From a virus, in IMG/VR virus record IMGVR_UViG_3300046167_000226, positions 1 through 34,655 of that record: a stretch of DNA of 34,655 nt; one strand, written 5' to 3'. Numbering within the stretch: the stretch's first letter is position 1; each line of letters begins with the position of its first letter. The notes beneath the pieces were generated by a model, which made no database searches, was not told where the DNA came from, and was given only the letters and a program-made list of their open reading frames with translations. Made by a program: the position numbers and the translations under genes. Of the stretch, positions 7,865 through 33,752 are shown piece after piece.

Positions 7865-7879
7865 TGTTTTTAAATAAAG
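7865..7879 (+). promoter_or_regulatory. 15-nt late motif, copy 1 (terminase unit)
   Basis: TGTTTTTAAATAAAG, preceded by C. It lies 25 nt ahead of the small-terminase start. No TTTG/TAnnTTTG promoter is present here, so the motif is the only candidate for starting this late unit. Confidence 0.7.
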
Positions 7880-7904
7880 AGTAATAAAATCAACATAAAC
7901 CAAC

Positions 7905-8213
7905 ATGGCAGGTAAAAAGAAATCAGAATGTAACTCACCTTCAGATAATTGGGGAGGTTCTAGACCTAACAGCGGTAGACCTACAAATGGAGAGGTTATA
8001 AATATACGCAAGATAATGGATGAGCATATAGATGTTAACATCGTTATGGAACAGCTACTACAGAGAATAGAATCAGGTGATCATAGAGCTATTGAATTAT
8101 TCATGAAGTATAGAGCAGGAATGCCTAAGCAAGAGATAGACCTCAACACTACAGGAACAGTAGATCACAATATAACTTTAAAAGGATTGATTTCCTTTGA
8201 CGATGACGAATAG
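7905..8213 (+). CDS. terS: Terminase small subunit
   Basis: 102 residues, directly ahead of the large subunit. The basic N-terminus (MAGKKK) and GGSRPNSGRP are typical of small terminases in Bacteroidetes phages and resemble AT-hook DNA contacts. The middle is helical (MEQLLQRIESGDHRAIELFMKY) and the C-terminus is acidic. It should recognise the packaging site and load the motor protein. It is shorter than many small terminases (150 or more), so assignment leans on the neighbour. Confidence 0.75.
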   Translation: MAGKKKSECNSPSDNWGGSRPNSGRPTNGEVINIRKIMDEHIDVNIVMEQLLQRIESGDHRAIELFMKYRAGMPKQEIDLNTTGTVDHNITLKGLISFDDDE

Positions 8214-8215
8214 CT

Positions 8216-9427
8216 ATGATTAAGTTAAGCCCTAAGTACAAACCTTTATTTCTTAATGACTCTAGATACTTTATAGTTACAGGAGGACGTGGAAGCTCTA
8301 AATCGTTTAGTATAGCTACCATGATCCTTCTACTTACTTATGAGAAAGGACATAATATATTGTTTACTAGATATACAATGACCTCAGCATCTACTTCTAT
8401 TATACCTGAAATGACAGAGAAGATAGACATTATGAATTTAAGTGATGACTTCTTAGTTAATAAAACAGATATAACTAATAAGGTTACAGGTAATAAGATA
8501 TACTTCAGAGGATTGAAAACAGGTAGCGGTAATCAGACTGCTGCTTTAAAATCGTTAAATGGAATTACTACTTGGATACTAGATGAGGCTGAAGAGATGC
8601 CTGACCCTTTACTATTTGATAAGATAGATTTATCTGTAAGGTCTAAGGACGCTCAGAATAGAGTTATCATGGTAATGAATCCGGCTACTAAAGCTCATTG
8701 GATATATAACAGATTCTTTCAGTCTAGAGGTATTATAGGAGGAGAAAACGTAACTAAAGAAGATACTACTTACATACATACTTCGTACTTAGATAATGAG
8801 AAGCATTTAGACCCTACATTCTTAGCTAATGTTAATAGAATGAAAGTGGAAAGACCTGCAGAGTATGAAGCTCAGATATTAGGAGGATGGAGATCAGTTG
8901 CTGAAGGTGTTATATTTAATAATTGGGAAGTAAAAGACTTTGACAATAGAGGAGACTACTATGGGATAGGTATGGATTTTGGTTTCTCTACTGATCCTAC
9001 AGGAGCTACTTTAATATCTATAAACAAAAATACTAAAGAGATATACTTAAAAGAGATTGTATATAGTGCAGGGTTAACTACTTCAGACATAGCTTCTAGA
9101 TTACTAAAGCACGGTAAAGATACTCTAACCATTGGTGATTCTGCTGAGCCTAGACTACTGCATGAGCTAAAACATTCTTACGGATTAAATATAAAGCCTA
9201 GTATAAAAGGACAAGGATCTATTAACCTAGGTATAGCATTACTTCAGGAATATAAACTATATGTCCATGGAGGCTCTACTAACCTTATTACAGAGCTTAA
9301 CAACTACACATGGAAGGAAGGGAAGGAAGTTGCTATAGATGACTTTAATCACCTTCTAGATGGTATCCGTTACTTTGTATCTTATCACTTATCTAAGCCT
9401 AATTCAGGGAAATACTTTATTTCTTAA
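8216..9427 (+). CDS. terL: Terminase large subunit
   Basis: 403 residues. The ATPase has Walker A GGRGSSKS at 23-30, an ILFTRYT strand and Walker B WILDEAEE near 120-126. The nuclease domain has the metal-binding GMDFG near 253, GDSAEPRL near 307 and DDFNHLLDG near 375. It packages DNA into the prohead and cuts it. The start follows the small subunit by 2 nt. A T-rich stretch after the stop (9428-9455) has no GC stem. The portal gene is unusually far away, about 19 kb downstream. Confidence 0.93.
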   Translation: MIKLSPKYKPLFLNDSRYFIVTGGRGSSKSFSIATMILLLTYEKGHNILFTRYTMTSASTSIIPEMTEKIDIMNLSDDFLVNKTDITNKVTGNKIYFRGLKTGSGNQTAALKSLNGITTWILDEAEEMPDPLLFDKIDLSVRSKDAQNRVIMVMNPATKAHWIYNRFFQSRGIIGGENVTKEDTTYIHTSYLDNEKHLDPTFLANVNRMKVERPAEYEAQILGGWRSVAEGVIFNNWEVKDFDNRGDYYGIGMDFGFSTDPTGATLISINKNTKEIYLKEIVYSAGLTTSDIASRLLKHGKDTLTIGDSAEPRLLHELKHSYGLNIKPSIKGQGSINLGIALLQEYKLYVHGGSTNLITELNNYTWKEGKEVAIDDFNHLLDGIRYFVSYHLSKPNSGKYFIS

Positions 9428-9455
9428 AACTTTTTTACTTTTTTTTTACTTTTTA

Positions 9456-9487
9456 TTTGGTAGTTACATTTATTTAGTATATCTTTG
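9456..9487 (+). promoter_or_regulatory. Host-type promoter opening the second accessory block
   Basis: TTTG at 9456-9459 and TATCTTTG at 9480-9487, spacer 20 nt. The -33 side GGTAGTTACATTTATT is shared with the promoter at 10243. Confidence 0.8.
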
Positions 9488-9507
9488 TAGTGTAAAACAG
9501 ATATATT

Positions 9508-9750
9508 ATGAAATTAATAAAGACAATAGACCAAGGATTCGCACTAATAAAGTACTATGATTTAGGAAAAACTACTTCTAAATTCGAAGGAGGATTTGAC
9601 AGAAAGATCGAAGTGATACAAACACTAGATACAGGTCAAGAATCTAAATGTAGATATAGAGGTACATGGTCAGTTGATTATGATGGAGTCGTAAGAATAG
9701 AAACAGCTTCAAAGCCTTACAGCACTAAGTGTAAAGGATTTGATTATTAA
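9508..9750 (+). CDS. Small protein of unknown function (80 aa)
   Basis: A lysine- and glycine-rich, beta-looking product (MKLIKTIDQGFALIKYYDLG, then KCRYRGTWSVDYDGVVRIET) with two conserved-looking cysteines that could pair or bind metal (CRYRG, TKCKGF). It is the first gene of the accessory block and is followed after 11 nt by the DnaA-like gene. No family recognised. Confidence 0.55.
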   Translation: MKLIKTIDQGFALIKYYDLGKTTSKFEGGFDRKIEVIQTLDTGQESKCRYRGTWSVDYDGVVRIETASKPYSTKCKGFDY

Positions 9751-9761
9751 AACCCAATATT

Positions 9762-10250
9762 ATGAAATTAGACGAATTAAAAAGAATAACACTAGAGAAA
9801 ACAGGAGTAGACTTAACATCTAAAAGTAGAAACGGTAATGTAATCTATATTAAACAATGCTATATCTATATGGCTAGAATTAATAAATACAGCTACGCTA
9901 AGATAGGTGAATCTATAGGCTTAACACATGCGACAGTACTATGGCATTTCAAACAAGCGGATTTTTGGGTTAAGAATAGCGATAGAGAGTTTATAGCTAA
10001 GATTTATGAGATTTATGACGTAGACGTAAGGGTAGTTATTGATCCTAGAGATATGCTACTTCCAATTCATTTAGCAGTATCTAAATGCCCTTTAGACAGG
10101 GTAGATGAGTTAGCTGAGAGAGTAGAAGCTATTATTAAGGGGTATCTATGGCAGGATGAGGCTAGGAAAAAGAATACCTTCACTAAAGCAAAGTCAGTAC
10201 TATTAGGTACTGAAGAAAAAGATAAAAAAAAGTTAGAATATATTTGGTAG
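9762..10250 (+). CDS. DnaA domain IV-like DNA-binding protein
   Basis: 162 residues. Residues about 25-70 (IKQCYIYMARINKYSYAKIGESIGLTHATVLWH) match the pattern of the C-terminal DNA-binding domain of DnaA: an ARxLT-type helix, S-x-x-IG, then the HATVLH signature (here HATVLWH). The AAA+ part of DnaA is absent. The remaining residues are helical and unassigned, with a charged lysine-rich C-terminus. It could bind DnaA-box-like sites in the phage or host origin, either to start phage replication or to block host initiation. The next promoter lies inside its 3' end. Confidence 0.65.
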   Translation: MKLDELKRITLEKTGVDLTSKSRNGNVIYIKQCYIYMARINKYSYAKIGESIGLTHATVLWHFKQADFWVKNSDREFIAKIYEIYDVDVRVVIDPRDMLLPIHLAVSKCPLDRVDELAERVEAIIKGYLWQDEARKKNTFTKAKSVLLGTEEKDKKKLEYIW

Positions 10251-10274
10251 TTACATTTATTCATTGTATCTTTA
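10243..10274 (+). promoter_or_regulatory. Host-type promoter overlapping the DnaA-like gene end
   Basis: TTTG at 10243-10246 and TATCTTTA at 10267-10274, spacer 20 nt. CAGTGTCAAACA follows the -7 box, similar to other accessory promoters. Confidence 0.8.
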
Positions 10275-10302
10275 CAGTGTCAAACAATAAAAACTATATA
10301 TT

Positions 10303-10539
10303 ATGAAATACTTTAGAACATTATTAAACGAAAAAGGAATTAGCTTAGATACTGTATTAGAGGTAGAAGGAGCAGAATGGGGAACTAACTTTATACCTGT
10401 TGAGGTAGTGGTAGAATTCATGGAGACTAGAGACATGGAAACTCAAAAGAAAATGAGAAACAACTTAACTAAGATTGATTTTATGAATGGAGATGTTATG
10501 CATTTCATCACATATGTTGCTAAGTTCTTAGCTAAATAA
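10303..10539 (+). CDS. Small protein of unknown function (78 aa)
   Basis: Begins MKYFRTLLNEKGISLDTVLE, which suggests a short helical start, followed by an acidic middle and a hydrophobic helix at the C-terminus (MHFITYVAKFLAK). The C-terminal residues could lie on a membrane surface. It is led by the 10243 promoter and followed by an attenuator-like hairpin. No family recognised. Confidence 0.55.
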   Translation: MKYFRTLLNEKGISLDTVLEVEGAEWGTNFIPVEVVVEFMETRDMETQKKMRNNLTKIDFMNGDVMHFITYVAKFLAK

Positions 10540-10549
10540 TAAATATAAC

Positions 10550-10568
10550 GGGGTGTAAAAACCCCTTT
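10550..10568 (+). terminator. Short GC hairpin, attenuator-like
   Basis: GGGG and CCCC enclose TGTAAAAA, followed by only three T. It is identical over more than 20 nt to the hairpin at 13538, and each sits between two genes where the second has no promoter. Partial termination is therefore likely. Confidence 0.55.
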
Positions 10569-10581
10569 AAAACTTTTAATT

Positions 10582-10785
10582 ATGGATTTTGTAAAACTAA
10601 ACGAATTAAACGAAGAGATTAAGAAGAGCTCTGATGAAATGTATAGCTTAATAGATAACGCTGATATTTTCAACAAAACAGGTAGAAAAGTATTAGCTAA
10701 GATATGCGAAGATAGAGCGACAACTCTACTAAGTAGAATCAATGTAATGAATAGAGAATTTGATCAATTAATAAATAAAAAGTAA
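10582..10785 (+). CDS. Small helical protein of unknown function (67 aa)
   Basis: Highly charged and helical (KLNELNEEIKKSSDEMYSL, then LAKICEDRATTLLSRINVM), consistent with a helical hairpin. It lies behind an attenuator-like hairpin, so it is probably made in smaller amounts than the preceding protein. No family recognised. Confidence 0.5.
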   Translation: MDFVKLNELNEEIKKSSDEMYSLIDNADIFNKTGRKVLAKICEDRATTLLSRINVMNREFDQLINKK

Positions 10786-10788
10786 GTC

Positions 10789-11197: not shown

Positions 11198-11201
11198 TAT
11201 C

Positions 11202-11717: not shown

Positions 11718-11749
11718 TTTGGTAGTTAAATAAAAAAAGCGTATATTTG
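11718..11749 (+). promoter_or_regulatory. Host-type promoter for the second lipoprotein
   Basis: TTTG at 11718-11721 and TATATTTG at 11742-11749, spacer 20 nt. The leader to the start codon is about 40 nt. Confidence 0.8.
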
Positions 11750-12738: not shown

Positions 12739-12770
12739 TTTGGTGGTTAAGTAAATCTGTTGTATCTTTG
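12739..12770 (+). promoter_or_regulatory. Host-type promoter
   Basis: TTTG at 12739-12742 and TATCTTTG at 12763-12770, spacer 20 nt. Followed by AAGTGTCAAACAG and then AATAACTTTAAAA, the shared leader. Confidence 0.8.
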
Positions 12771-13189: not shown

Positions 13190-13221
13190 TTTGGTGGTTA
13201 GAAATAATCACCTTATCTTTG
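13190..13221 (+). promoter_or_regulatory. Host-type promoter with internal inverted repeat
   Basis: TTTG at 13190-13193 and TATCTTTG at 13214-13221, spacer 20 nt. Bases 13193-13212 read GGTG-N-TTA, four bases, TAA-N-CACC, the same operator-like layout as at 5483 and 5778. Confidence 0.8.
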
Positions 13222-13857: not shown

Positions 13858-13872
13858 TGTTTTTAAATAAAG
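13858..13872 (+). promoter_or_regulatory. 15-nt late motif, copy 2 (tail unit)
   Basis: TGTTTTTAAATAAAG, 8 nt before the start codon at 13881. No host-type promoter nearby. Confidence 0.7.
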
Positions 13873-13880: not shown

Positions 13881-14537
13881 ATGGATATATTAGTACCTAC
13901 TAGCATCAATGATATTACTTTAGAACAGTATCAGAGATTCGCTTTAATCAATACAGAAGATCAGGATCAGGAATTTTTTATACATAAAACTATAGAAATA
14001 TTCTGTAACGTAGACCTTAAGACTATAAACAAGTTTCCTATAAAGGACGCTAGAGCTATCTCAGAGGAGATCTTAGCTGTTTTAAATCAAAACGTACCCT
14101 TTACTGACAGATTTGAGTTAGATGGCGTTAAATACGGTTTTATACCTGATTTGCAACAGATGAGTCTAGGTGAGTTTATAGATCTAGAGGATGCTTTAAA
14201 ATCATCTAAAGACTTTCATAAAGCTGCGTCTGTTATGTTTAGACCTATCAAGAAGGAATATAGTAAGTTATACGCAATAGAGCCTTATGAAGCCTCCACG
14301 AGGATGCATGAAGTAATGAAGAAAGCACCTGTAGGAATTATAAGTGCATCTATAGTTTTTTTTTACACTATCGTCAACGAGTTACTAATGGCTTCGAAGG
14401 ACTTTTCGGAGACGGAACTAGCGGAGGCGATGACTATAGTAGAGAAGGTCAATTTGCAAAGAAATACGGTTGGTTTAACTCGATATACGCATTATGTGGA
14501 GGTATTGCGACAAAATATGGAGAGGTTACACGAATGA
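13881..14537 (+). CDS. Tail assembly chaperone-like protein, frame 0 (lambda G-like)
   Basis: 218 residues in frame 0. The N-terminal 160 residues (LEQYQRFALI, EFFIHKTIEIFCNV, PDLQQMSLGEFIDLEDAL, MFRPI, IISASIVFFYTIVNELL) have the pattern of chaperone proteins that precede tail genes in Bacteroidetes phages. Past about residue 170 the codons change to many G/C-ending ones (TCG, ACG, GCG, GAG, GTC), unlike the rest of the phage. The -1 frame there is open and has phage-like codons instead. Frame 0 beyond about 14409 may therefore be only an accidental extension, and the main product may be a -1 frameshift fusion of about 246 residues ending at 14620. Confidence 0.7.
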   Translation: MDILVPTSINDITLEQYQRFALINTEDQDQEFFIHKTIEIFCNVDLKTINKFPIKDARAISEEILAVLNQNVPFTDRFELDGVKYGFIPDLQQMSLGEFIDLEDALKSSKDFHKAASVMFRPIKKEYSKLYAIEPYEASTRMHEVMKKAPVGIISASIVFFYTIVNELLMASKDFSETELAEAMTIVEKVNLQRNTVGLTRYTHYVEVLRQNMERLHE

Positions 14538-14620
14538 ATCATCTAGAAGCTCTAATGTTTTTAGAGTTTGAAAAAGAGAAGACAGAAATAGAAAGGGCAC
14601 AATATAGACGAAACAGGTAA
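14312..14620 (+). CDS. -1 frame extension of the tail chaperone (GT-like), reached by frameshifting
   Basis: This frame is open from 14312 to the TAA at 14618-14620 and has no good start codon until ATG 14534. Its translation beyond about 14400 reads like real protein: FGDGTSGGDDYSREG, FAKKYGWFNSIYALCGGI, TKYGEVTRMNHLEALMFLEF, then EKEKTEIERAQYRRNR. The switch from frame 0 could occur at the nine-T run at 14356-14364 or at the C-TTTT at 14402-14406. Either yields about 246 residues. Lambda and many siphoviruses make a G/GT pair this way. A true indel or an assembly error in the T run would look the same. Confidence 0.6.
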   Translation, partial: SNEESTCRNYKCIYSFFLHYRQRVTNGFEGLFGDGTSGGDDYSREGQFAKKYGWFNSIYALCGGIATKYGEVTRMNHLEALMFLEFEKEKTEIERAQYRRNR

Positions 14621-14623
14621 AAC

Positions 14624-15082
14624 ATGAATAACATATTTAAATTAACAGACAAGATAAAAGAGGAGCTACAAAATAACGAGCTTATCAATCAGGTTACTTT
14701 TGGTGATCTATTTGAAGTAGATTTACTTAAGAAAAACATATATCCCTTAGCCCATGTAGGTATGTCTACAGCTAGAATAGGTCAAGGGGTCGCTTATGTA
14801 GATATGAGTATCTTATTTTTAGATATAGTAGATGAATCTAAGTCAGAAGAGACGGATCACTTTTACGGTAATGATAATGAGCATTTTGTAATGAATAGCA
14901 TGTTTTCAGCAGCTACCAAGACAGTTCAGGAGTTAATGAGAGGTGAATTATATGGAGACGGATTTCAAGTTGACGAAGATGACGTATCTGTAGAATTTTT
15001 CTCTGAAAGATTTGAAGATAAACTAGCAGGTGTAGGCATCGACTTTACTGTAGCTATTAAGAACACTTTAGATCTATGCTAA
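14624..15082 (+). CDS. Putative tail completion/terminator protein
   Basis: 152 residues. Helical N-terminus (IFKLTDKIKEELQNNELIN), then a strand-rich centre (YVDMSILFLDIVDES) and a C-terminal GVGIDFTVAIKN strand. Placed between the chaperone and an HK97 gp10-like gene, this size and outline fit a tail terminator or head-tail joining protein. The assignment is by position and general form. It overlaps the next gene by 7 nt. Confidence 0.55.
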   Translation: MNNIFKLTDKIKEELQNNELINQVTFGDLFEVDLLKKNIYPLAHVGMSTARIGQGVAYVDMSILFLDIVDESKSEETDHFYGNDNEHFVMNSMFSAATKTVQELMRGELYGDGFQVDEDDVSVEFFSERFEDKLAGVGIDFTVAIKNTLDLC

Positions 15083-15672
15083 ATTTAACTAACACCTCTA
15101 CTTATCCTAGAGCTAGACGAGTCTTAGAAGCTTATAAACGCTACGTAGTTTCTCAGTCTAAATCTAATTTAACTAAAGGTAGACATGTTAACGGAAAAAG
15201 GAAGTCATATAAGGCTACTAGTAAGCTTTATTCTAGTTTAAAGGGTTATGTATCCTCTAAGATGAATAGATCGCTTAAAGGACGTTTTACGGGTGGTTCT
15301 AGCATGCCTGAGTTAACTTTTGAAATGGCTGACTATGGTAAGTTTATTGATGAAGGAGTAAAAGGGTCAAAAAGTAATTATATAGAGAACAGAAATAGCC
15401 CTAATAAGTTTAGAGGTGGAAAGAAATCAGTTCCTGTTAAGCCTATAGAGAAATGGTGTAGAGCTAGAGGTATATCAGAGAAGTTAGCATTTGTAATAGC
15501 TAGGTCTATATATCAAAAAGGTATAAAAGCGTCTCATTTCTTTACAAAACCATTACAGAAGAGAAACAAATCAATGTGGACGTCATATCATAAAGCTATC
15601 GCAGATGACATCGCTAATAATTTCGCTAATAAAATAGCAAAAAAGATAAAAGCAAATAAATTACACAAATAA
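15076..15672 (+). CDS. HK97 gp10-like neck/head-tail joining protein
   Basis: 198 residues, strongly basic. The phrase FEMADYGKFIDEGVKG, with a tyrosine and a GKFIDEG turn followed by a basic loop and a helical C-terminus, is typical of gp10-like head-closure/tail-joining proteins in Bacteroidetes phages. It stands next to the tail-completion candidate, supporting a role at the head-tail interface. The C-terminus is a lysine-rich helix (ANKIAKKIKANKLHK). Confidence 0.6.
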   Translation: MLNLTNTSTYPRARRVLEAYKRYVVSQSKSNLTKGRHVNGKRKSYKATSKLYSSLKGYVSSKMNRSLKGRFTGGSSMPELTFEMADYGKFIDEGVKGSKSNYIENRNSPNKFRGGKKSVPVKPIEKWCRARGISEKLAFVIARSIYQKGIKASHFFTKPLQKRNKSMWTSYHKAIADDIANNFANKIAKKIKANKLHK

Positions 15673-15673
15673 C

Positions 15674-16783
15674 ATGGCAGTATATAGAAACATCAATGTA
15701 AGAAGCCCTTTCTTTAGTCAATTAGCTACCTCTGAGCCTCTAGTAGACTTAGAACTTAGAGTTTGGGTAGGTCTTTTAAGCAATAAACCTACAGACCCTA
15801 CTTATACAATGACTAAGGAGCAAACAGGAGGACAAGCTACTTTTGAGATAGCTGAATTAATTAGAGACAGCATTTCTCAGTCAGCTTCATTAGTTTCAGG
15901 TACTGCATGGGTTGAGGTTATGATGGATGACAGAGACGCTACACCTACTGAGACTATATATTTAGCTAGTGAAGGATATAAATTATTTACAGAAGGAGTT
16001 CAAAACAATGGTAACTCATGGGAGTCAGATTTTGTAGCTTTACCTGAGTACTCTTCAGGTAATTATAAGGTATTAGTAGGGCATGATCGATACTCTACTT
16101 TTTCTGTATATATTCAGCCTCAGAATTCAATAGATTGGAAATACACAGTAAATAAGACAGACGGAACTTCTTATGACGAGCTTTTATTTGAAGTAGATTC
16201 TAGTCAAGCTAAATTTGTTAATATACAGGTAGGTAAAGACATTTCATCTATAGACTTAGATATGGGTGGAGAATTAGCTACAGTAGAAGCAGTTTACACA
16301 GATTGCAATAAATACAATATGTCGCCTACGGCTTCCCAAGTAGTCTCAGGTAATATAGATGACAGTAAGCACGTTAGTTTAATGTATGTTAATAAATACG
16401 GAGCTAGAACTGAATTTCCTTTTACTTTAAAACATATTGAATCTATAGAGGTTTCTAGCGATGGATTTCATAGAAATAATATAAATTACAACTCACTTAA
16501 TACTTACAACGGTAAACATGCTTTTAGAAAGAGGATAACAGGCTCTAAGCAGAGCTTCGTAGCTAATACTGATTGGTTAGATCAATACTTCGTAAAACAA
16601 ATGGAGGAAATGATTATGAGTGAGTATGTATGGGCTAGAGTATCTACTGTTAACGACACTACTTACTTCCCTATAAATATAAAGACAAAGAAATTAGAGA
16701 AAAAGAATCACTTAAATGACAAACTAATTCAATATTCTGTACAATTTGAAACAGCTTCAGAATATATTAATACAGTTAGATAA
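15674..16783 (+). CDS. Virion structural protein, probably tail tip/baseplate (369 aa)
   Basis: Starts 1 nt after the previous stop and ends directly against the next start. The sequence is beta-rich with many aromatic and threonine residues (LELRVWVGLLSNKPTDPTYT, GTAWVEVMMDDRD, KYTVNKTDGTSYDELLFEV) and no catalytic motif. Similar large beta proteins occur beside tail genes in Bacteroidetes phages. Position next to the 790-aa tail protein suggests a baseplate or tail-tip component. Confidence 0.55.
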   Translation: MAVYRNINVRSPFFSQLATSEPLVDLELRVWVGLLSNKPTDPTYTMTKEQTGGQATFEIAELIRDSISQSASLVSGTAWVEVMMDDRDATPTETIYLASEGYKLFTEGVQNNGNSWESDFVALPEYSSGNYKVLVGHDRYSTFSVYIQPQNSIDWKYTVNKTDGTSYDELLFEVDSSQAKFVNIQVGKDISSIDLDMGGELATVEAVYTDCNKYNMSPTASQVVSGNIDDSKHVSLMYVNKYGARTEFPFTLKHIESIEVSSDGFHRNNINYNSLNTYNGKHAFRKRITGSKQSFVANTDWLDQYFVKQMEEMIMSEYVWARVSTVNDTTYFPINIKTKKLEKKNHLNDKLIQYSVQFETASEYINTVR

Positions 16784-19156
16784 ATGAAAATACCTTTAAG
16801 AATATTAATAGGAGAAACTTTAGAAATTGATGAAACAGTAACTAATTGGGGTGATGTTATTGATACGTGGGAGACTTACGCGGTCTTATGGAATCAGTCA
16901 GGAGGTTTATCGGTAGACCCTACAGCTGCACCTGTTTTGGATATGTTCGGAGACGAAGGTATATCTATAAAGTCTTTAGTAAAAGACATGAGTGATCCTA
17001 AAAAACTATTTACAGACTTTTCTAGATCCTTTACAGTACCTGCTAGTAAAAAAAATAATAGAATATTTAAGCACTACTACAATATAGAGATAACTAACGG
17101 TATAGATTCTAGGGAGTTAGTTCCTGCTAGAATATTAATGAATAACGCTACGTATAAAGTAGGTAATATAAGAGTGGAAGGAGCTAAAATGTCTAAAGGA
17201 GTAGCTTTGTCTTATAAGATTACTTTTATAGGTAAATTATCAGAACTATCTAGAAAAATAGGGCAAGATAGATTATCTTCTTTAGATCTAGATAAATACA
17301 ATATATCTTCATTTAATATAAAATCTCAGATAACGGATCTAACTGCTAGAGATATAATGTTCCCTTTAAGCTCTCGTAAGGAACGATTAGTTTACAATAG
17401 TGGTACTAAGTCTCTAGGAATAGATAATATCAGAAACATAGCTTATATTGACTCTACACCCGCAGACGATTACGGTATAGTAGCTGAAGGCGTGGTTGGA
17501 GCTATGTCCGTAGGAACTTTGCTAGATGAAATTGAGCTTAAATATGGTTTTAATTTTACAGGAGCGATGACTAAAGACTATGTTAGAGATTTGAGGTTAT
17601 GGCTTCATCAAACTAAGAATGAAAGATCAGGAGATTTTCTTTTCGATGCTGTAGATGATTTAACTTGGCGAGGAGGATCTGTTAGCGGTTTTACTAGAAA
17701 CGATCATTCTTTGGTGCATAACGAGTCTTTAGGTACTCCCAACACTCCTGGTCATATAAAATATGGTTTGAGAATGAAGGGAACTTGGGCAGGAGACGCT
17801 AAACTTAAAATGTTTAGAAATGGATATATAATAGCTACGTCTAGCGTTTCAGGTCAAATCAAACAAGTGTCAGCAGGTAATGATGGAGACGTTTATACAT
17901 TTACAGTAGAATCTGATACAGCGTTGTCAGCAGATATAGAGATTTCGGTATATCAATACGTGTACCAATTAGAAGAGGGGCAGTTCGGTCTAGAAGGATA
18001 CTATTTGAACGCAATATTTCCTTTAGATGCTACCGCCACAGTAGGTTTAGTAGATACTTTTGTAGTTCATGAACACATGCCTAAAATGAAGATTATGGAG
18101 TTTTTATCTTCTTTATTTAAGATGTTTAACTTAGTTGCTCAAGTTGACAACGAATTAAATATATCAACAAAGCACTATGATCATTTCATGAGTGAAGGAG
18201 AGCTTAAAGATATTACTGATTATGTAGATATAGAGAGCTATGATGTTAATAGACCTAACATATACTCTTCTTTACAGATGGATTTCGCAGATCCTAAAGT
18301 AGCTCTAGAATTAGGATATCTAGCTGTTAACGGTAAACAATACGGGGAATTAGCTTATGAATTAACAGGTAATAACGGGGTGAGGTTATCAGGTTCGGAA
18401 TATAATCTTAAGTTAGAGAATCAGAGAATACCTGTAGAGCCTTTAACTGATTTGAATGATTATTCTAGCACAACAGTCTTACATACTTTATTTAGTGATT
18501 TAAAAGGCGCTGAACAGCAAGTAAAACCTAGTTTTACATATATTGTTAAACGATTATCAGGAGATAGTATAGCTTTTTCAGGTGAAACCACTGTTACTAG
18601 CTCTACAACATATACGACGCCTTCCAATTCTTATAATAATCAAACATTAAATAATAATATTCCGAATAGTGAGTTAGGTATATTAGGTCTATACTTCGGA
18701 GAGGAAATTAGTGAATATAATCCCGACTCTTTTAAGGAAGGAATGGGGCTATGGAACTCTTTTTACAGAGGTATCACAGCAATGATGTTTAATGAAGATA
18801 AGAGAAGGGTTACTTTTAAATCTCACTTACCTCAAGGTGTAATATTAAATTTATCTTTAGCAGATACTTTCCGTATTAATAACAAATTTTATAATATTAA
18901 CTCTATAGATACTAATTATTTAACAGGTGTATCTAAATTAGATTTAACCTTAGTAGGTAGAAGCCGATTACCTCAGTTTCACACTTCATGGACTATAACT
19001 AACAATGATTCTGCTAATATACTATACATAACTTATATAGATATAAATGGAGAATTAGTTAGAGGTCAAGTAGCTGTGTCAAGTACTGTTACTTTATCAA
19101 TGATAGGAGATGTTATAGGTCATAGTCATAATGACTACATATCAGCTAAGGCTTAA
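16784..19156 (+). CDS. Large tail/baseplate structural protein (790 aa)
   Basis: ATG 16784 directly follows the previous stop. The N-terminus (LEIDETVTNWGDV, SDPKKLFTDFSRSFTVPASKKNN) is a phrase typical of a family of Bacteroidetes phage tail proteins. Further on lie beta-rich segments, a HEHMPKMKIMEFLSSLFKMF helix near residue 430 and a C-terminal beta domain ending SHNDYISAKA. It probably forms part of the tail tip that contacts the cell. It is the last gene of the 13881-19156 unit. Confidence 0.6.
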   Translation: MKIPLRILIGETLEIDETVTNWGDVIDTWETYAVLWNQSGGLSVDPTAAPVLDMFGDEGISIKSLVKDMSDPKKLFTDFSRSFTVPASKKNNRIFKHYYNIEITNGIDSRELVPARILMNNATYKVGNIRVEGAKMSKGVALSYKITFIGKLSELSRKIGQDRLSSLDLDKYNISSFNIKSQITDLTARDIMFPLSSRKERLVYNSGTKSLGIDNIRNIAYIDSTPADDYGIVAEGVVGAMSVGTLLDEIELKYGFNFTGAMTKDYVRDLRLWLHQTKNERSGDFLFDAVDDLTWRGGSVSGFTRNDHSLVHNESLGTPNTPGHIKYGLRMKGTWAGDAKLKMFRNGYIIATSSVSGQIKQVSAGNDGDVYTFTVESDTALSADIEISVYQYVYQLEEGQFGLEGYYLNAIFPLDATATVGLVDTFVVHEHMPKMKIMEFLSSLFKMFNLVAQVDNELNISTKHYDHFMSEGELKDITDYVDIESYDVNRPNIYSSLQMDFADPKVALELGYLAVNGKQYGELAYELTGNNGVRLSGSEYNLKLENQRIPVEPLTDLNDYSSTTVLHTLFSDLKGAEQQVKPSFTYIVKRLSGDSIAFSGETTVTSSTTYTTPSNSYNNQTLNNNIPNSELGILGLYFGEEISEYNPDSFKEGMGLWNSFYRGITAMMFNEDKRRVTFKSHLPQGVILNLSLADTFRINNKFYNINSIDTNYLTGVSKLDLTLVGRSRLPQFHTSWTITNNDSANILYITYIDINGELVRGQVAVSSTVTLSMIGDVIGHSHNDYISAKA

Positions 19157-19396: not shown

Positions 19397-19411
19397 TGTT
19401 TTTAAATAAAG
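19397..19411 (+). promoter_or_regulatory. 15-nt late motif, copy 3 (tape measure unit)
   Basis: TGTTTTTAAATAAAG, 6 nt before the start codon at 19418. Confidence 0.7.
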
Positions 19412-22134: not shown

Positions 22135-22149
22135 TGTTTTTAAATAAAG
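22135..22149 (+). promoter_or_regulatory. 15-nt late motif, copy 4 (protease unit)
   Basis: TGTTTTTAAATAAAG preceded by C, 7 nt before the start at 22157 and only 6 nt after the tape measure stop. Confidence 0.7.
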
Positions 22150-23067: not shown

Positions 23068-23082
23068 TGTTTTTAAATAAAG
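23068..23082 (+). promoter_or_regulatory. 15-nt late motif, copy 5 (fibre unit)
   Basis: TGTTTTTAAATAAAG, only 3 nt before the ATG at 23086. If the motif is a promoter element, this message would be leaderless or nearly so. Confidence 0.7.
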
Positions 23083-23085: not shown

Positions 23086-23493
23086 ATGTACATAAAAGCA
23101 AAATATCCAAAAGTAGGTAATGAATTCGGAGGATCGCAAGCAGGTGTTCAGGGATTTGGTAGCTTATACGGAGGTAATCAAAACAGCAATGTAACAAATA
23201 TAGATACTAGATTAAATGATAGTTTAGTTAGCAGATCGTCTACTAGTTATATGTTTGGGGGTAATATATTATCAGTGTACATTAATATTAATAATAAAGA
23301 TCAGCTTGTATTTACTAATGAGTCTATATTCTTAATAGATCAATCTACTTTAGAAATTACAGAAATAAATGCCGATAGAGCTTTAGAATTTATCAACGGC
23401 TCTGAATGGGTGAAGGACTTCTTTTTTGCATTAGGAGACGGAAAAGGTAATACAATACATGACGGAAATAACAATAAAATAACAACAGGATAA
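23086..23493 (+). CDS. Putative fibre-associated structural protein (135 aa)
   Basis: A Gly/Asn/Ser-rich start (MYIKAKYPKVGNEFGGSQAG) leads into a small beta domain (GGNILSVYININNKDQLVF) and a polar tail. The stop is 1 nt before the fibre gene. It is probably an anchor or cofactor for the fibre. No family recognised. Confidence 0.5.
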   Translation: MYIKAKYPKVGNEFGGSQAGVQGFGSLYGGNQNSNVTNIDTRLNDSLVSRSSTSYMFGGNILSVYININNKDQLVFTNESIFLIDQSTLEITEINADRALEFINGSEWVKDFFFALGDGKGNTIHDGNNNKITTG

Positions 23494-23494
23494 A

Positions 23495-25855
23495 ATGAGT
23501 ACAATAAAAATAAGTCAATTAGCTACAACAGATATATCACTAAGTGATTTCATAATAAAAGCAGATTCTCAAGGGATTGCTACAAAAAACACAGTACAAG
23601 GTCTTTCTAACTTAATGACAACAGTACAAGATTTATCTTTTAAAGGTTCAATATCAATATCTGATACACCATCTCAAAACGGTTGGTATTTCGCAAGTGA
23701 AAGCGGAACATATACTAACCTAGGAGGAATAGTTGTTGATACAAGCGACAATATAGCTATTTTAATAGTTTCAGGTAGTTCTGATGTTTTTGAAAAGATT
23801 GATATACCTGTGAATGTAAATATAGACTCTGTACCTACTCCAAACAGTACAAACGCTGTCTCTAGTGGAGGTGTATCGGAAATCTTAGATAATAATATAA
23901 TATTAAAAGATTCAAGGTTAAATAGTGATACAGTAGTTACTTCTTCTGATGCAGGTCAATTCAATTTAACATCAGGGACTCTATCTTCTTACGAGGATGG
24001 TGTAAAGATAATGACTACAGGTGTTCAAAGGCTAGAAAACTACACTTTTTTAGATAATAATTCAGGTCAAACCGTATACTACGAATTTTACGCTAAAAAA
24101 ATCAGCGGAGACGGTAGTATAAGATTAGCGTTTGGAAATACGGTAAACACACCTAATTCAAATAACTTCACTATTACTAATGATTGGGTAAAATACTCAG
24201 GCTCATTACCTGTAGGGTCTGTAAACGTAAACAGAATTGCTTTTTTTACCTCTTTAAATGCTTCAGAAATTTCGTTAAGAGATTTTAACTGTTATTTTGA
24301 TTTAAACGACAAAGGTGTTCTTCCTAATATTGAACAAAATAAATCAACTATTGAAACTGAATATCAAAGGGTTAACGATTTAGAAGTAGAGATAGACAAC
24401 AATACACAATCAATATTAGATATAAATGCTCCAAATGCAACTAACAATATTTTAGCTGAAGATTCTAGATTTGACGAGAATTCTGTAATAAGTGGGTCAT
24501 CAGTAGGTAATTGGATAACACAGGCAGGAGGCTTTAATCTATCTAAAAATGTTGATGAAAGCTTTAATTTAACATTAACTTCTACAGGGACGATTAGATT
24601 TGTTAATTTAACAGCTATTTCAAGCTATGCAGATAATGATGAGTTTGAGGTTTTACTAGAAGTAAAAAGAGTAAATCCTGTCGGTGATTTATTTTTTGAC
24701 TTCACAACTTCTACTACAGGACAATCAATACCTAAAATAAATAACGAGTGGCAAATACTTAATTTTAATGCAGTTAAAACACCTGCTTACACGAATAGGA
24801 TTGGATTTATAATGACAAATTCAGGTATAGGCGAAGAGATACATATAAGACCTTTAGTTATAGCTAAAGATTCTATTCAATACTCTAAAATTAAAGATAT
24901 TGAGTCTAGATTAAATACTTTAGAAACATCTACTTATGAAGGTAAGAAGATTTCTGTAATTGCTGACAGTATAGGTACTTTGTACAATAATAATGCAGTA
25001 GAAATAGAAATATTTCAAGAAGATATAGATAATTCAAGAAGCTTAACCGCTTATGTATCTCATTGGGATGTATGGACTGACTCGTCAGGAACTATTCCAA
25101 CTAATAAAACTATCGGTAGTTATACATTGCAAGATACAGATATAGGTAACCAAATAACTGTAAGTCCTATTGTTGGTGATGTAGGTAAAACGATAGGAGA
25201 GCCTTTAAATTATAATAGTGCTTCTACTCAAACTTGGTGTAAATTGTTGTCAGATAAGCTAGGCATGAATTTAATTCAGAATGTAGCTTGGAGTGGTTCG
25301 AAAATAACTTCTAAAAACGAAACATCTAGCATATATAAAACTAGCCATTCTTGGCATCCTGCTACCATAAATAAATGCAAGAAAAGATCTTCTGACAATA
25401 CGTTTACTAATCCTGACGTTATTTTGATTTCAAGAGTTACAAATGATTTTAGTCATTCACCTACTACTTTAATTACAGATTATGATAACACTAATTTTAC
25501 TATACCTAGTACAGATGTGGTAACAGGTGGATATGGTTATAAGGAAGGAATAGCTTTAACAATTAAAAAGATAAGAGAAGAATATCCTTTGTCAGAAGTA
25601 TGGATAGCTACAGGTACAGATGTAGAAAGGAATAATTATTCTAGTGGAATTGTCAACAATGGGAGCTTCTCTTTAAATCAATATAATGAGGCTGTAATAG
25701 AAATGGCTAGCTTATTTTCTTGCAGATTTCTTAGGTTGGATAAATGTGGTGTAAATATTAGTAATATAGGATCGACTTATTCTGATGATGGTACTCATTT
25801 AAACCAAAAAGGTCATAGTTTAATAGCTGATAGATTATTTGAAAAGGATTTCTAA
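23495..25855 (+). CDS. Tail fibre with C-terminal SGNH/GDSL hydrolase domain
   Basis: 786 residues. The N-terminal ISQLATTDISLSDFIIKAD and the PTPNSTNAVSSGGVSEIL phrase are typical of Bacteroidetes phage tail fibres. Two similar beta-sandwich units lie near 140-250 and 310-460, each starting with an ILAEDSRFDE/ILKDSRLNSD-type phrase. The SGNH domain begins near 485 with VIADSIG (nucleophile Ser), has SRVTNDF near 647 and ends with SDDGTHLNQKGH (Asp and His of the triad). Between the first two blocks is an extra beta-rich insert of about 85 residues. The enzyme likely removes acetyl or other esters from a surface polysaccharide receptor. Confidence 0.75.
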   Translation: MSTIKISQLATTDISLSDFIIKADSQGIATKNTVQGLSNLMTTVQDLSFKGSISISDTPSQNGWYFASESGTYTNLGGIVVDTSDNIAILIVSGSSDVFEKIDIPVNVNIDSVPTPNSTNAVSSGGVSEILDNNIILKDSRLNSDTVVTSSDAGQFNLTSGTLSSYEDGVKIMTTGVQRLENYTFLDNNSGQTVYYEFYAKKISGDGSIRLAFGNTVNTPNSNNFTITNDWVKYSGSLPVGSVNVNRIAFFTSLNASEISLRDFNCYFDLNDKGVLPNIEQNKSTIETEYQRVNDLEVEIDNNTQSILDINAPNATNNILAEDSRFDENSVISGSSVGNWITQAGGFNLSKNVDESFNLTLTSTGTIRFVNLTAISSYADNDEFEVLLEVKRVNPVGDLFFDFTTSTTGQSIPKINNEWQILNFNAVKTPAYTNRIGFIMTNSGIGEEIHIRPLVIAKDSIQYSKIKDIESRLNTLETSTYEGKKISVIADSIGTLYNNNAVEIEIFQEDIDNSRSLTAYVSHWDVWTDSSGTIPTNKTIGSYTLQDTDIGNQITVSPIVGDVGKTIGEPLNYNSASTQTWCKLLSDKLGMNLIQNVAWSGSKITSKNETSSIYKTSHSWHPATINKCKKRSSDNTFTNPDVILISRVTNDFSHSPTTLITDYDNTNFTIPSTDVVTGGYGYKEGIALTIKKIREEYPLSEVWIATGTDVERNNYSSGIVNNGSFSLNQYNEAVIEMASLFSCRFLRLDKCGVNISNIGSTYSDDGTHLNQKGHSLIADRLFEKDF

Positions 25856-25889: not shown

Positions 25890-25904
25890 TGTTTTTAAAT
25901 AAAG
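25890..25904 (+). promoter_or_regulatory. 15-nt late motif, copy 6 (capsid unit)
   Basis: TGTTTTTAAATAAAG, 27 nt before the scaffold-like start. Confidence 0.7.
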
Positions 25905-27899: not shown

Positions 27900-27922
27900 T
27901 TTTTACAATTCTATTACAAATA

Positions 27923-27952
27923 AGGGCTATCATTAAGGTAGCTCTTTTTTTT
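27923..27952 (+). terminator. Rho-independent terminator ending the capsid unit
   Basis: AGGGCTATC and GGTAGCTCT form a 9-bp stem with two G-U pairs, loop ATTAA, followed by a run of T to 27952. Confidence 0.8.
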
Positions 27953-27973: not shown

Positions 27974-27988
27974 TGTTTTTAAATAAAG
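27974..27988 (+). promoter_or_regulatory. 15-nt late motif, copy 7 (portal unit)
   Basis: TGTTTTTAAATAAAG preceded by C, 8 nt before the start at 27997, just after a terminator. Confidence 0.75.
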
Positions 27989-30333: not shown

Positions 30334-30336
30334 CAA

Positions 30337-30837: not shown

Positions 30838-30841
30838 ATAA

Positions 30842-31750
30842 ATGGCTACATATACAGGACAAAAAATAAAAGATACTTACGAGTCTATACTAAAGCTAGA
30901 CGATAATGGTAATCTAACTTCATCTACTAAAATTATAACAGATGGATTAGGTAACCAAACACCCTTATCAATATCCTCTACAGAGGTAAAGTCTAGTGTT
31001 AATTTAGAGGCTACAGGTTTTAAGACACCTACAGGAACTTCTTCTGAATTCTTAAAATCAGACGGTAGTGTAGATTCAAATACATACTCAATAGCTTCAG
31101 ATTTAGATAATTATTTATTAAACACTACAGATACGTTAGACGGTGTTTTTACTTTAGAGAATGATATGGGTGTCTCAGGTAATTTTGACGCAGCTCAGCT
31201 AAGGTTAGATACAAGTAATGTCGTAAACACCACAGGGTTTCAGGGAATGAGATTTCAAACAAGTTCAGCACCTAATTACGGATGGAGTATGGGTGTGAAT
31301 AGGAGTGGTTTAGGTAGAGGTTCTTTTAGATTTTTTGAACATAATAATAGTAATGCAGGAACTGAAAGGTTTACTATGTTACAAGATGGTAATATCGGTA
31401 TAGGTGAGAATAATCCTAGTTATAAATTAGATGTTTCAGGAGATGGTAGATTTACCTCGGATGTTACGTCTACAAACTTTGTAATATCCTCTGATATTAG
31501 ACTTAAAAACAATATAGAAGAAGTTGATAATAAACATATAAATGTTGATTGGAAAACTTTTGAAATGAATTCAGATCAAGGTCAGAAGAGATATGGAGTG
31601 ATAGCTCAAGAGTTAGAAGAATTTCATCCTGAATTCGTGAGAACAAATGACGAAGGTATTAAATCTGTAGCTTATGTAGATTTACTAATCGCTAAGAATG
31701 CGGAACTAGAAGCAAGAATAGAGCAACTAGAAAAACTATTAATTAATTGA
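30842..31750 (+). CDS. Tail fibre/appendage with C-terminal S74 chaperone domain
   Basis: 302 residues. The N-terminal half is beta-rich and polar (TPTGTSSEFLKSDGSVDSNT). The C-terminus has SSDIRLKNNIEEVD, the conserved start of the Peptidase_S74 intramolecular chaperone, with the usual self-cleavage serine, followed by YGVIAQELEEFHPEFV and a coiled coil (AELEARIEQLEKLL). S74 domains trimerise and fold fibres and then cut themselves off. This is the second receptor-type protein of the phage, separate from the SGNH fibre. Confidence 0.75.
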   Translation: MATYTGQKIKDTYESILKLDDNGNLTSSTKIITDGLGNQTPLSISSTEVKSSVNLEATGFKTPTGTSSEFLKSDGSVDSNTYSIASDLDNYLLNTTDTLDGVFTLENDMGVSGNFDAAQLRLDTSNVVNTTGFQGMRFQTSSAPNYGWSMGVNRSGLGRGSFRFFEHNNSNAGTERFTMLQDGNIGIGENNPSYKLDVSGDGRFTSDVTSTNFVISSDIRLKNNIEEVDNKHINVDWKTFEMNSDQGQKRYGVIAQELEEFHPEFVRTNDEGIKSVAYVDLLIAKNAELEARIEQLEKLLIN

Positions 31751-31770
31751 TTATAAATCAGTGATTAAAC

Positions 31771-31786
31771 TGTTTTTAAAAAAAAG
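31771..31786 (+). promoter_or_regulatory. 15-nt late motif, variant copy 8 (lysis unit)
   Basis: TGTTTTTAAAAAAAAG: the ATA of the consensus is replaced by A and the motif is one base longer. It is 15 nt before the start at 31802. A weaker version could delay or reduce lysis gene expression. Confidence 0.65.
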
Positions 31787-31801
31787 AGCAACTACAACAA
31801 C

Positions 31802-32068
31802 ATGAATAAACAAGATAGAGATAGAATGGACGAATTCGGTAATAAATTAGGAAACCTTAACAATAAAGTAGAGAGGATTCTAGACGCGTTACTAGATGAC
31901 AAAAGAACATCTAAAGAAGGTGTTATCTCTAAAGTTGTTCAAATGGAAAAAGATATGCAGGTAATTATGACTGCTTACAATATTGGTAAATGGTTAGTAG
32001 CTATAATTACTACTATAATGATCTCAATGCTTACAGCAGGAATTAATTTTATTTGGTTTGATAACTAA
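31802..32068 (+). CDS. XhlA-like membrane protein of the lysis cassette (88 aa)
   Basis: A charged helical N-terminus with a coiled-coil pattern (NKLGNLNNKVERILDALL) and one C-terminal membrane segment (WLVAIITTIMISMLTAGINF). This outline matches XhlA-type holin-associated proteins. It overlaps the amidase gene by 11 nt. It may act as a holin or holin partner with the 3-TM protein at 32964. Confidence 0.6.
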   Translation: MNKQDRDRMDEFGNKLGNLNNKVERILDALLDDKRTSKEGVISKVVQMEKDMQVIMTAYNIGKWLVAIITTIMISMLTAGINFIWFDN

Positions 32069-32519
32069 AATAAACAACATCGACAGATATATAGATAAAA
32101 TAATAATACATTGTACAGCTACTCCTGAAGGTAGAAATGTATCTGTAGATACCATTAAAGAATGGCATTTAGATAGGGGTTGGAGTGATATAGGTTACCA
32201 TTACGTTATAGATATAAAAGGAGTGTCTCATGAAGGTAGAGATTTAGAGGTTCAGGGAGCGCACACTAAAGGATATAATAAAAACTCAATAGGTATAGCA
32301 TACGTAGGAGGTGTAGAGAAGCATCGTAAAGATGGTAAATGGATTACTAAGGATACTAGGACAGAAAACCAAAAAGATCGCTTAGAGGCTCTTATATTAG
32401 ATTTAATGGATAGATTCCCTAACGCTACATTACATGGACATAATGAATTCTCTACTAAAGACTGCCCTAGCTTTGATGTACAAGAAGAATATAAAGAAAT
32501 AATAGACTATTTTAGATGA
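32058..32519 (+). CDS. N-acetylmuramoyl-L-alanine amidase (T7 lysozyme type endolysin)
   Basis: 153 residues. The start is TTG at 32058, because no ATG lies ahead of the conserved core in this frame. Zinc ligands are His 18 (IIHCTAT), His 128 and Cys 136 (HNEFSTKDC); Tyr 47 and Lys 134 match the catalytic residues Tyr 46 and Lys 128 of T7 lysozyme. It cleaves the amide bond between MurNAc and L-Ala. No signal peptide is present, so release depends on a holin. It overlaps both neighbours. Confidence 0.85.
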   Translation: MITKINNIDRYIDKIIIHCTATPEGRNVSVDTIKEWHLDRGWSDIGYHYVIDIKGVSHEGRDLEVQGAHTKGYNKNSIGIAYVGGVEKHRKDGKWITKDTRTENQKDRLEALILDLMDRFPNATLHGHNEFSTKDCPSFDVQEEYKEIIDYFR

Positions 32520-32974
32520 AAATAAAACTGATATACACATTGATAATTTTACTATTCACTAGTATAAAACCTAGAGAAGAAAAGATTACTGTGTTAATAT
32601 CAGATCAGTTAAAACCTTATGTAGTAGAATATTTAAAAGTATTAGACGAAAACAATATAGAATATAAAGAGCAGAACTTAGTAGTTATGTTTGATATAGG
32701 TTTAATCCATCAAGATGCTGCAGGTATAGCTTACGGTATGTTTAACGACAGTTTTGTTTTTGTAGGTATATGCCCTAGGTCATGGCAACAGTTAAATCAT
32801 GATCAAAAAAAATGGCTTATATGGCACGAATTATCACACGATTTATTTAACGTAAGACATACTCAAGAATTAGAAGTAATGAAGCCTGTAATGATTGATG
32901 CTTTGAGTTTAAGTATTTTAGATAAACAGAAGATATACAAGGATTTAATAAAACACATAAAAGATGAGCAATAA
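32516..32974 (+). CDS. Putative zinc metallopeptidase with N-terminal signal/anchor (lysis cassette)
   Basis: 152 residues. The N-terminus (MKIKLIYTLIILLFTSI) is a signal peptide or membrane anchor. The zincin core is WHELSH at 103-108 with His 104, Glu 105 and His 108, and a third His at 115, six residues after the second. EVMKP near 120-124 resembles a Met-turn. It overlaps the amidase stop (ATGA at 32516-32519) and the next start by 11 nt. Its place between endolysin and holin suggests it cuts peptidoglycan peptides or envelope proteins, possibly replacing a spanin. The activity is inferred from motif and place. Confidence 0.6.
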   Translation: MKIKLIYTLIILLFTSIKPREEKITVLISDQLKPYVVEYLKVLDENNIEYKEQNLVVMFDIGLIHQDAAGIAYGMFNDSFVFVGICPRSWQQLNHDQKKWLIWHELSHDLFNVRHTQELEVMKPVMIDALSLSILDKQKIYKDLIKHIKDEQ

Positions 32975-33434
32975 TCCAAAACTTAGAAAAAACGGAGGTA
33001 AAGGTACTGCTGTAGGTAATTTCTTACGATCTTTAAATTTTAAGAAAACTGCTGAAGTAGTTGGTAATTTAGTTACAGGAAATATTAAAGAAGCTATCAG
33101 TGTACTTGCTGATAAAGACAACGGTATGACTCAAGAGGAAAGGGAGTTTGCTTTAGAGGTAATGAAGTTAGATATAACTGAAATGGAATCAGTTACAAAT
33201 AGATGGCATAGCGATATGACTTCTGATAGTTGGTTAAGTAAGAATGTAAGACCTTTGTCCTTAATTTTCTTAACACTAGCTACTACTGTATTAATATACT
33301 TAGACTTTTATTATGGTGAAGATCTAGACACTCCTTCGGAATGGATTGAACTACTTAAATCACTTTTATTAGGTATATATATTGCTTACTTCGGTTCTAG
33401 GGGTATCGAGAAGGCTAGGTCTATTGGCAAATAA
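32964..33434 (+). CDS. Holin, 3-TM type (GTA-holin-like)
   Basis: 156 residues. A soluble N-terminal part leads to TNRWHSDMTSDSWLSKNVRP, the conserved approach of the holin of 3 TMs family, then membrane segments LSLIFLTLATTVLIYLDFYY and LLKSLLLGIYIAYFGSRGIE. It should open the inner membrane for the amidase and set lysis time. It is the last gene before the noncoding region, and its 3' end faces the leftward promoter at 33660-33691. Confidence 0.75.
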   Translation: MSNNPKLRKNGGKGTAVGNFLRSLNFKKTAEVVGNLVTGNIKEAISVLADKDNGMTQEEREFALEVMKLDITEMESVTNRWHSDMTSDSWLSKNVRPLSLIFLTLATTVLIYLDFYYGEDLDTPSEWIELLKSLLLGIYIAYFGSRGIEKARSIGK

Positions 33435-33466
33435 ACATAGCTAACCCCTAATACGAAAAAAACTTG

Positions 33467-33643
33467 AATATCTTATCAAATAAAGCTGTATCTGATAAAA
33501 AAAAGGCTATATCTTTACAAAAGGCTATATCTTTAGAAGGGTTATATCTTAGGAAGTTATATCTTTAGTTGTTATATCTTTATAGATAAATCCCTTATAG
33601 TTATAACTATTTAGTAGATATAAAGTGTAAAAGATATATCTTA
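33467..33643. repeat. Array of about eight TATATCTTT-type repeats with two palindromes
   Basis: Repeats start at 33467, 33486, 33507, 33525, 33542, 33557, 33572 and 33634. The five central copies share (C/T)TATATCTT(T/A) with steps of 18, 17, 15 and 15 nt. ATAGTTATAACTAT at 33597-33610 is a perfect 14-bp palindrome and AAGATATATCTT at 33631-33642 a perfect 12-bp one. The block is AT-rich and noncoding, lies just before the replication genes and has no coding potential. It could be the replication origin (iterons), a regulator-binding array, or a decoy for host sigma because each copy looks like a -7 box. Confidence 0.65.
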
Positions 33644-33659
33644 TTAAGTAATTACAAGG

Positions 33660-33691
33660 CAAAGGTACGAAAAAAAATTGACATACGCAAG
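33660..33691 (-). promoter_or_regulatory. Leftward host-type promoter, the only one on the - strand
   Basis: On the - strand, CTTG (33691-33688) and TACCTTTG (33667-33660) with a 20-nt spacer. The upstream part is identical over 19 bp to the promoter at 443. The transcript would run through the repeat array and into the 3' end of the holin gene from the opposite side. No ORF with a start codon is seen in the first 200 nt of that direction, so the product would be a noncoding or antisense RNA. Confidence 0.65.
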
Positions 33692-33737
33692 TTTTTTATA
33701 AATTATTTTTAAAAAGATAACAAACCTATATTAAATT

Positions 33738-33752
33738 TGTTTTTAAATAAAG
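33738..33752 (+). promoter_or_regulatory. 15-nt late motif, copy 9 (ninG unit)
   Basis: TGTTTTTAAATAAAG, 77 nt before the NinG-like start. It is the only copy with a long structured leader. Confidence 0.65.

Follow-up and report, generated by a model that had tools for sequence, protein, structure and literature searches.

The window analysed here is the whole of IMG/VR virus record IMGVR_UViG_3300046167_000226, 34,655 nucleotides (nt) long, and our subject is a 15-nt motif, TGTTTTTAAATAAAG, which stands ahead of its structural, packaging, lysis and ninG genes and is a candidate core of the late promoters of this phage. A reading frame for an Erf annealing protein spans both ends of the record (1-437 and 34549-34655), so the genome looks complete and circular, probably at 34,655 bases. 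The window contains eight exact copies of the motif, all on the + strand, where dinucleotide shuffles gave an expected count of 0.01 and none of 100 shuffles reached eight. Scanning both strands at up to one mismatch added no further copy, and the reversed pattern, allowed the same mismatch, had no match anywhere in the window. Owing to its AT-rich composition the motif did not stand out in simple k-mer enrichment within the window, and we turned to pattern and positional methods.

The copies precede the terminase, tail, protease, capsid, portal and NinG units (Table 1). A variant with two mismatches, TGTTTTTAAAAAAAA, precedes the lysis unit, which consists of 31802, an amidase (32058) and a holin (32964). 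The 46-codon open reading frame (ORF) behind the 19397 copy overlaps the start of the tape-measure gene (19558), and an AAACAAA-like box lies upstream of the 25890 copy. None of the early genes of the window has a copy at up to one mismatch. A preliminary description of this DNA had given the eight copies, their strand, the variant, the units behind them, a distance to the start codon of 3 to 77 nt and the absence of the motif from early and accessory genes, and pattern search, shuffles and measurement bore this out. It had also held that the motif is never accompanied by TTTG/TAnnTTTG; no copy has the full pair, but a lone TAAATTTG octamer (33732-33739) overlaps the copy at 33738.

That copy is separated from NinG by a leader (33753-33829) containing a conserved RNA hairpin with the stem GGCTAGG/CCTAGCC and a well-conserved loop with a GUAGGGUUU core. 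Compensatory changes were found in six of the seven pairs among 16 relatives. An Rfam search of the window gave no match, the hairpin included, and we regard it as a candidate new cis-regulatory RNA. Its conservation agrees with + strand transcription starting at the 33738 copy.

Conservation and replacement of the motif in related phages

Relatives were fetched from IMG/VR with terminase, portal, sigma factor and tape-measure proteins as queries, and the motif was counted at up to one mismatch, with sites deduplicated, in the resulting family set of 166 related loci (1.42 Mb). It occurred 204 times in forward orientation, and there were no matches in reverse or with the reversed-pattern control. 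As the preliminary description had proposed looking for, the sites precede orthologous genes, although the flanking sequence diverges. Each of 14 longer related records held four to eight copies in a single direction, the only exception being one extra one-mismatch reverse match in one record. We also scanned IMG/VR by the motif alone, requiring an ATG 3-9 nt behind TGTTTTTAAATAAAG and applying no filter for homology. Among the matches listed, 60 of 103 new loci belonged to the phage family, all loci with at least two copies were family members, and the non-family loci had one copy each, which is what chance would give.

Individual sites were kept as well. The site ahead of terS and terL is present in nearly all relatives with at least 62% terL identity, a few of the copies upstream of the terminase deviating at two positions. 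The site orthologous to 13858 occurs in about 20 relatives, often right behind a T-run or terminator, and the 3-nt spacing of the 23068 type is kept in six. Ahead of the lysis genes relatives carry exact or one-mismatch copies (L094, L168, L199), and the AAAA-type variant also recurs there, so the 31771 variant is plausibly a genuine but degenerate site.

The distance from motif to ATG in the deduplicated family sites was never 0-2 nt, peaked at 3-9 and 21-26 nt, and extended past 60 nt. This distribution fits a promoter and not a ribosome site, as the preliminary description had also concluded. Terminator-like hairpins lay within 90 nt upstream of 19 of 98 motif sites, compared with 13 of 980 random places and 74 of 924 motif-free gene starts. 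Since a terminator directly upstream calls for a fresh transcription start, these sites lie where new initiation would be needed.

Outside the clade of the window (clade 1), the corresponding genes carry other signals. In clade 2 (about 55% terL identity) the window motif is absent and CGTTATATAA takes its place, 45 times forward and never in reverse, often 2 nt before the ATG. In clade 3, that of Nonlabens phage P12024S, which was isolated together with its marine host, CGTTAATATA or close variants stand 1-2 nt before the ATG, with a AAAACAAA box upstream. Clade 4, whose sigma factors are 31-37% identical, has a looser version of the window motif (15 forward, 1 reverse, 0 control), its sites lying partly right behind terminator hairpins. 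Since the same genes bear a clade-specific signal, the job is conserved and the sequence is not. Pattern, orientation, position, family-wide conservation and clade-specific replacement of the motif are all direct observations.

The phage sigma factor and the anatomy of its predicted promoters

The candidate reader of the motif is the product of gene 2013-2597, a predicted sigma factor resembling those of the extracytoplasmic function (ECF) group; an ORF beginning with GTG at 1980 extends this ATG form by 11 codons. The protein matched phrog_1740, RNA polymerase sigma factor, at E 4.7e-6. A profile of 37 relatives compared with the PDB matched the ECF sigma factors SigW, SigE, SigH and SigL over both domains (E 1.5e-4 to 0.01). 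AlphaFold2, run on an alignment from which one row of an annotated record was left out, modelled the protein as two helical domains, both confident, with a disordered linker between them (mean predicted local distance difference test score 86.9, predicted template modelling score 0.44). The best fold matches of the model were ECF sigma factors in initiation complexes and phage ECF sigma factors including GAP52, with template modelling scores that are low because the relative placement of the domains is not fixed. The two-domain sigma2-sigma4 layout and length of 194 amino acids are within the range of about 160-210 for ECF sigma factors. The Pfam family Sigma70_r2 matched 16 of the 37 family members at E<=0.05, the best of them, among the relatives, at 1.3e-8; the sigma70 region 4 family matched none of the 37. 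A tblastn search with the window protein found no match among annotated phages, and its relatives were taken from IMG/VR. Scanning bacterial genomes with the sigma alignment gave weak matches in unrelated phyla, and no prophage or host was found.

Orthologs of this sigma factor were found in every clade, P12024S gp33 among them, and the gene was present in 64 of 64 loci spanning its neighbourhood. In a maximum-likelihood tree the sigma factors grouped by motif class, and clades 1 and 4, which share the motif, were sisters. The gene itself belongs to the early region and lacks a late motif. A strong intrinsic terminator (819-838) separates ORF 512-808 from the helicase-sigma genes; no promoter is evident behind it, and sigma expression may depend on read-through of this terminator. 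Some clade 4 phages have a second, diverged sigma paralogue (L213:4117-4638, L216:3084-3608).

Promoter anatomy was derived from 97 dereplicated sites, selected at up to one mismatch, in which core positions 1-14 were nearly invariant and position 15 was mostly G. A weak -35-like element (C/CAAA) precedes the core: about 50% of sites have a C 16-17 nt upstream, against a background of 16%, with an A-rich stretch after the C and W-A-W-A-Y adjoining the core. The C recurs before gene 13881 (6/7), portal (5/5), gene 27997 (7/11) and terS (7/13), and since these are several different genes it does not reflect one inherited flank. From the upstream-box C to (C/T)GTT the distance is 17-18 in clades 1 and 3. 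The ECF-type combination of -35 AAC and -10 CGT fits AAAACAAA/CGTTAATATA of clade 3, and the window clade has a weak CAAA and TGTT. The label of a single-element promoter in the preliminary description was therefore right only in part: there is one strong core, but also a weak upstream C/CAAA, and the Nonlabens phage clade has a clear AAAACAAA box.

Two registers can be proposed for the transcription start. If TAAATA (core positions 7-12) lies at -12 to -7, then transcription would begin 3-4 nt past the core, with the C near -35. If instead TGTT is the box, aligned with the CGTT of the other clades, then transcription would start near the end of the core. Both registers fit the shortest spacing of 3 nt and the absence of sites at 0-2 nt, and we infer a start about 0 to 4 nt beyond the core. 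The mRNA of ORF 23086 would then be expected to have a very short leader or to be leaderless.

Host-type promoters and other features of the window

The pattern TTTG-N17-23-TAnnTTTG had 10 matches in the window, all on the + strand, where 1.9 were expected, and most of them have an extended TTTGGTRGTTA-like box. In clade 1 relatives it matched 259 times forward, compared with 13 for the reversed control. TTTG/TAnnTTTG is the consensus of primary-sigma promoters in Flavobacterium (Bacteroidota) (PMC6847099). It is present in this genome for early and accessory genes, but has no element in common with the late motif. Sigma70-type promoter patterns were no more frequent in the window than in shuffles. 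We provisionally call the phage Bacteroidota-type on the strength of its Nonlabens phage relative and these host-type promoters.

Three host-type promoters (5480-5510, 5775-5805 and 13190-13221) have a spacer inverted repeat of the GGTGGTT...AATCACC type, which looks like a repressor operator. On the - strand, 33660-33692 contains a host-type promoter-like ACTTGCGTATGTCAA ... TACCTTTG, with an upstream box as in the + strand promoter near 444-476; this site may give rise to a leftward or antisense RNA, or to a primer. Between holin and NinG (33500-33583) lie iteron-like direct repeats, TATATCTTTA, four of them exact and others variant, which may mark a replication origin or an operator.

Table 1. 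Coordinates of the predicted sigma gene, candidate promoters and a terminator in the window.
Feature	Position	Strand	Remarks
Phage sigma factor, ECF-like (sigma2 + sigma4), predicted, 194 amino acids	2013..2597	+	PHROG, profile and fold matches
Host-type promoter, TTTG-N-TATCTTTG	4124..4154	+	Pattern match
Host-type promoter	5181..5212	+	Pattern match
Host-type promoter, TTTGGTGGTAA...TATATTTG	7352..7383	+	Pattern match
Candidate late promoter core, exact	7865..7879	+	25 nt to next ATG (7905); would drive terS-like 7905 and terminase large subunit 8216
Host-type promoter, TTTGGTAGTTA...TATCTTTG	9456..9487	+	Precedes accessory genes
Host-type promoter	11718..11749	+	Precedes accessory gene 11793
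Host-type promoter	12739..12770	+	Precedes accessory gene 12808
Host-type promoter, inverted repeat in spacer	13190..13221	+	Pattern match
Candidate late promoter core, exact	13858..13872	+	8 nt 5' of ORF 13881 (structural-gene unit 13881-19156)
Candidate late promoter core, exact	19397..19411	+	6 nt 5' of 46-codon ORF 19418
Candidate late promoter core, exact	22135..22149	+	7 nt 5' of head maturation protease 22157
Candidate late promoter core, exact	23068..23082	+	3 nt 5' of ORF 23086 (unit 23086-25855)
Candidate late promoter core, exact	25890..25904	+	27 nt 5' of ORF 25932; then capsid-like 26417, 27384
Intrinsic terminator	27922..27946	+	Directly 5' of the 27974 copy
Candidate late promoter core, exact	27974..27988	+	8 nt 5' of 27997; then portal 28388 to tail fibre 30842
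Candidate degenerate late promoter, TGTTTTTAAAAAAAA, 2 mismatches	31771..31785	+	16 nt 5' of 31802
Candidate late promoter core, exact	33738..33752	+	77-nt leader with conserved hairpin, then NinG 33830
Host-type promoter	34259..34290	+	Precedes 34319

Interpretation, rival explanations and known systems

Taken together, these results make TGTTTTTAAATAAAG almost certainly a promoter element, and it is very probable that it forms the -10-type core of late promoters at which host RNA polymerase works with the ECF-like sigma factor of the phage. From the sequence comparisons we infer the identity of the sites as promoters, their reading by the 2013-2597 protein, and their late timing. The preliminary description had called the motif a late promoter, and that part of it is strongly supported by positional conservation, strand bias, upstream terminators, and replacement of the motif alongside diverged sigma factors; the single-element label and the likeness to T4 hold only in part. 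In the mechanism that we propose, host RNA polymerase with its primary sigma factor would first read the host-type early and accessory promoters, and the phage would then make its own small ECF-like sigma factor. On the host core enzyme this protein would read the 15-bp core strongly and the A-rich C/CAAA near -35 weakly, and the holoenzyme would initiate at or just downstream of the core. Every late unit would have its own promoter, often right behind the terminator of the preceding unit, and such fresh starts would explain the terminator-like hairpins upstream of motif sites.

Several points weigh against this reading. The window sigma factor falls below the Pfam cut-off for Sigma70_r2 (E 0.0066), and its identification leans on the PHROG, profile and fold evidence. 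The match between sigma factors and motifs covers four clades only and is confounded with the overall phage phylogeny; the short sigma factors of clades 2 and 3 sit on long branches, and the deep order of the tree is uncertain. The clade 2 and 3 logos come from few independent sites, and the degenerate clade 3 pattern is noisy (37 forward, 28 reverse). The position weight matrix of the window motif overstates the invariance of the core, because its sites were preselected within one mismatch.

The sites could also be late promoters that depend on an alternative sigma factor of the host, or on a host sigma factor with a phage activator, the phage sigma-like protein having another role. Host Bacteroidota have many ECF sigma factors, and the reading role of the window protein is predicted from sequence with Pfam support below threshold. 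However, the motif shifts between clades along with the phage sigma factor, which a shared host sigma factor would not explain, and the sigma gene was never missing from the loci spanning its region, so we consider this unlikely. That the motif is intergenic and strand-specific would also suit a place where the RNA of one long late transcript is processed, an alternative raised in the preliminary description together with a recombination site. Against this, terminators are enriched directly upstream of the motif, which calls for a fresh start there, and one copy leaves just 3 nt to the start codon; moreover, the replacements in other clades are AT-rich and have a box about 17 nt upstream, like -35/-10 spacing and not like an endonuclease site. 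We consider RNA processing very improbable.

Equally improbable is a translation-initiation signal of the A-rich Kozak-like type of Flavobacterium. Shine-Dalgarno sites are missing in Bacteroidota, where A is preferred at -3, -6 and about -11 to -14 (PMC6847099), the core ends in AAATAAAG, and the clade 2 and 3 motifs nearly abut the ATG. The distribution of distances from motif to ATG largely refutes this explanation, though, and the motif stands on the first genes of units only, while its T5 run and TG would have no role in an A-rich context. Identical 15-mers repeated along the late region might finally suggest a recombination, replication or packaging site, yet strict orientation, position at gene starts, unconserved flanks, and replacement instead of loss in sister clades leave this the most far-fetched of the explanations considered. 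Both alternatives of the preliminary description are accordingly disfavoured.

Among known systems, late promoters read by a phage sigma factor invite comparison with T4, whose late promoter element is TATAAATA. Function and AT-richness are alike, with a single strong -10-type element, and TTTAAATA within the motif resembles TATAAATA. The latter itself is absent, however, TTTAAATA being one mismatch off and inside a longer invariant core. The similarity of T4 gp55 to sigma70 is confined to domain 2, and it acts with the gp33 co-activator and the sliding clamp gp45 (PMC2988020). In contrast, the predicted window protein is two-domain and ECF-matching, with a second helical domain that aligns to ECF sigma4. 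The comparison with T4 in the preliminary description is thus apt for the function and the AT-rich element but not for the sigma factor, which resembles ECF proteins (sigma2 + sigma4) and not gp55.

The closest analogues appear to be the phiEco32 gp36 and 7-11 gp47 systems. In phiEco32 the middle and late promoters carry one element, tAATGTAtA, with starts 6-8 bp downstream; it is read by gp36, a protein reported to be without homology to sigma region 4, whose distant homologue gp47 reads GTAAtg-16-aCTA at corresponding positions in 7-11 (PMC8948821). Shared with phiEco32 are a phage-encoded sigma factor on host RNA polymerase (predicted here), one strong element repeated ahead of late units, and early genes served by the host primary sigma factor. 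The differences are the sequence of the element, the kind of phage (an E. coli phage there, a Bacteroidota-type phage here), and in our case a predicted sigma4-like domain and promoters with a weak -35-like element. With 7-11 the family shares a bipartite late promoter whose positions are kept while sigma factor and promoter sequence diverge, and GAP52, from the same group, is among the fold matches of the window protein; the sequences are unrelated, and the window clade has a -35 side far weaker than its -10 side. In the open-access literature searched we found no late promoter and no late sigma factor of a Bacteroidota phage. Systems of this kind are known; the present one, with three promoter codes in a family of Bacteroidota-type phages, appears to be undescribed.

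A further and more tentative possibility, to which we give slightly less than an even chance, is that the late promoter has been re-coded at least twice within one family at kept positions, between a bipartite ECF-type form (AAAAC-N17-CGTTAATATA) and a near-single, all but invariant 15-bp core (TGTTTTTAAATAAAG), in step with the family's own sigma factor and with some late mRNAs leaderless or nearly so. If this is true, then the family would be a natural series from which the sigma-DNA recognition code of Bacteroidota-type phages could be read. Its orthologous sigma/promoter pairs are material for studying the evolution of promoter specificity. A sigma-dependent promoter without a known host counterpart would be a useful orthogonal tool for Bacteroidota genetics. 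The 15-mer offers a means to recognise late units in fragmentary metagenomic contigs, and for this widespread family of marine phages there is now a transcription programme that can be tested.

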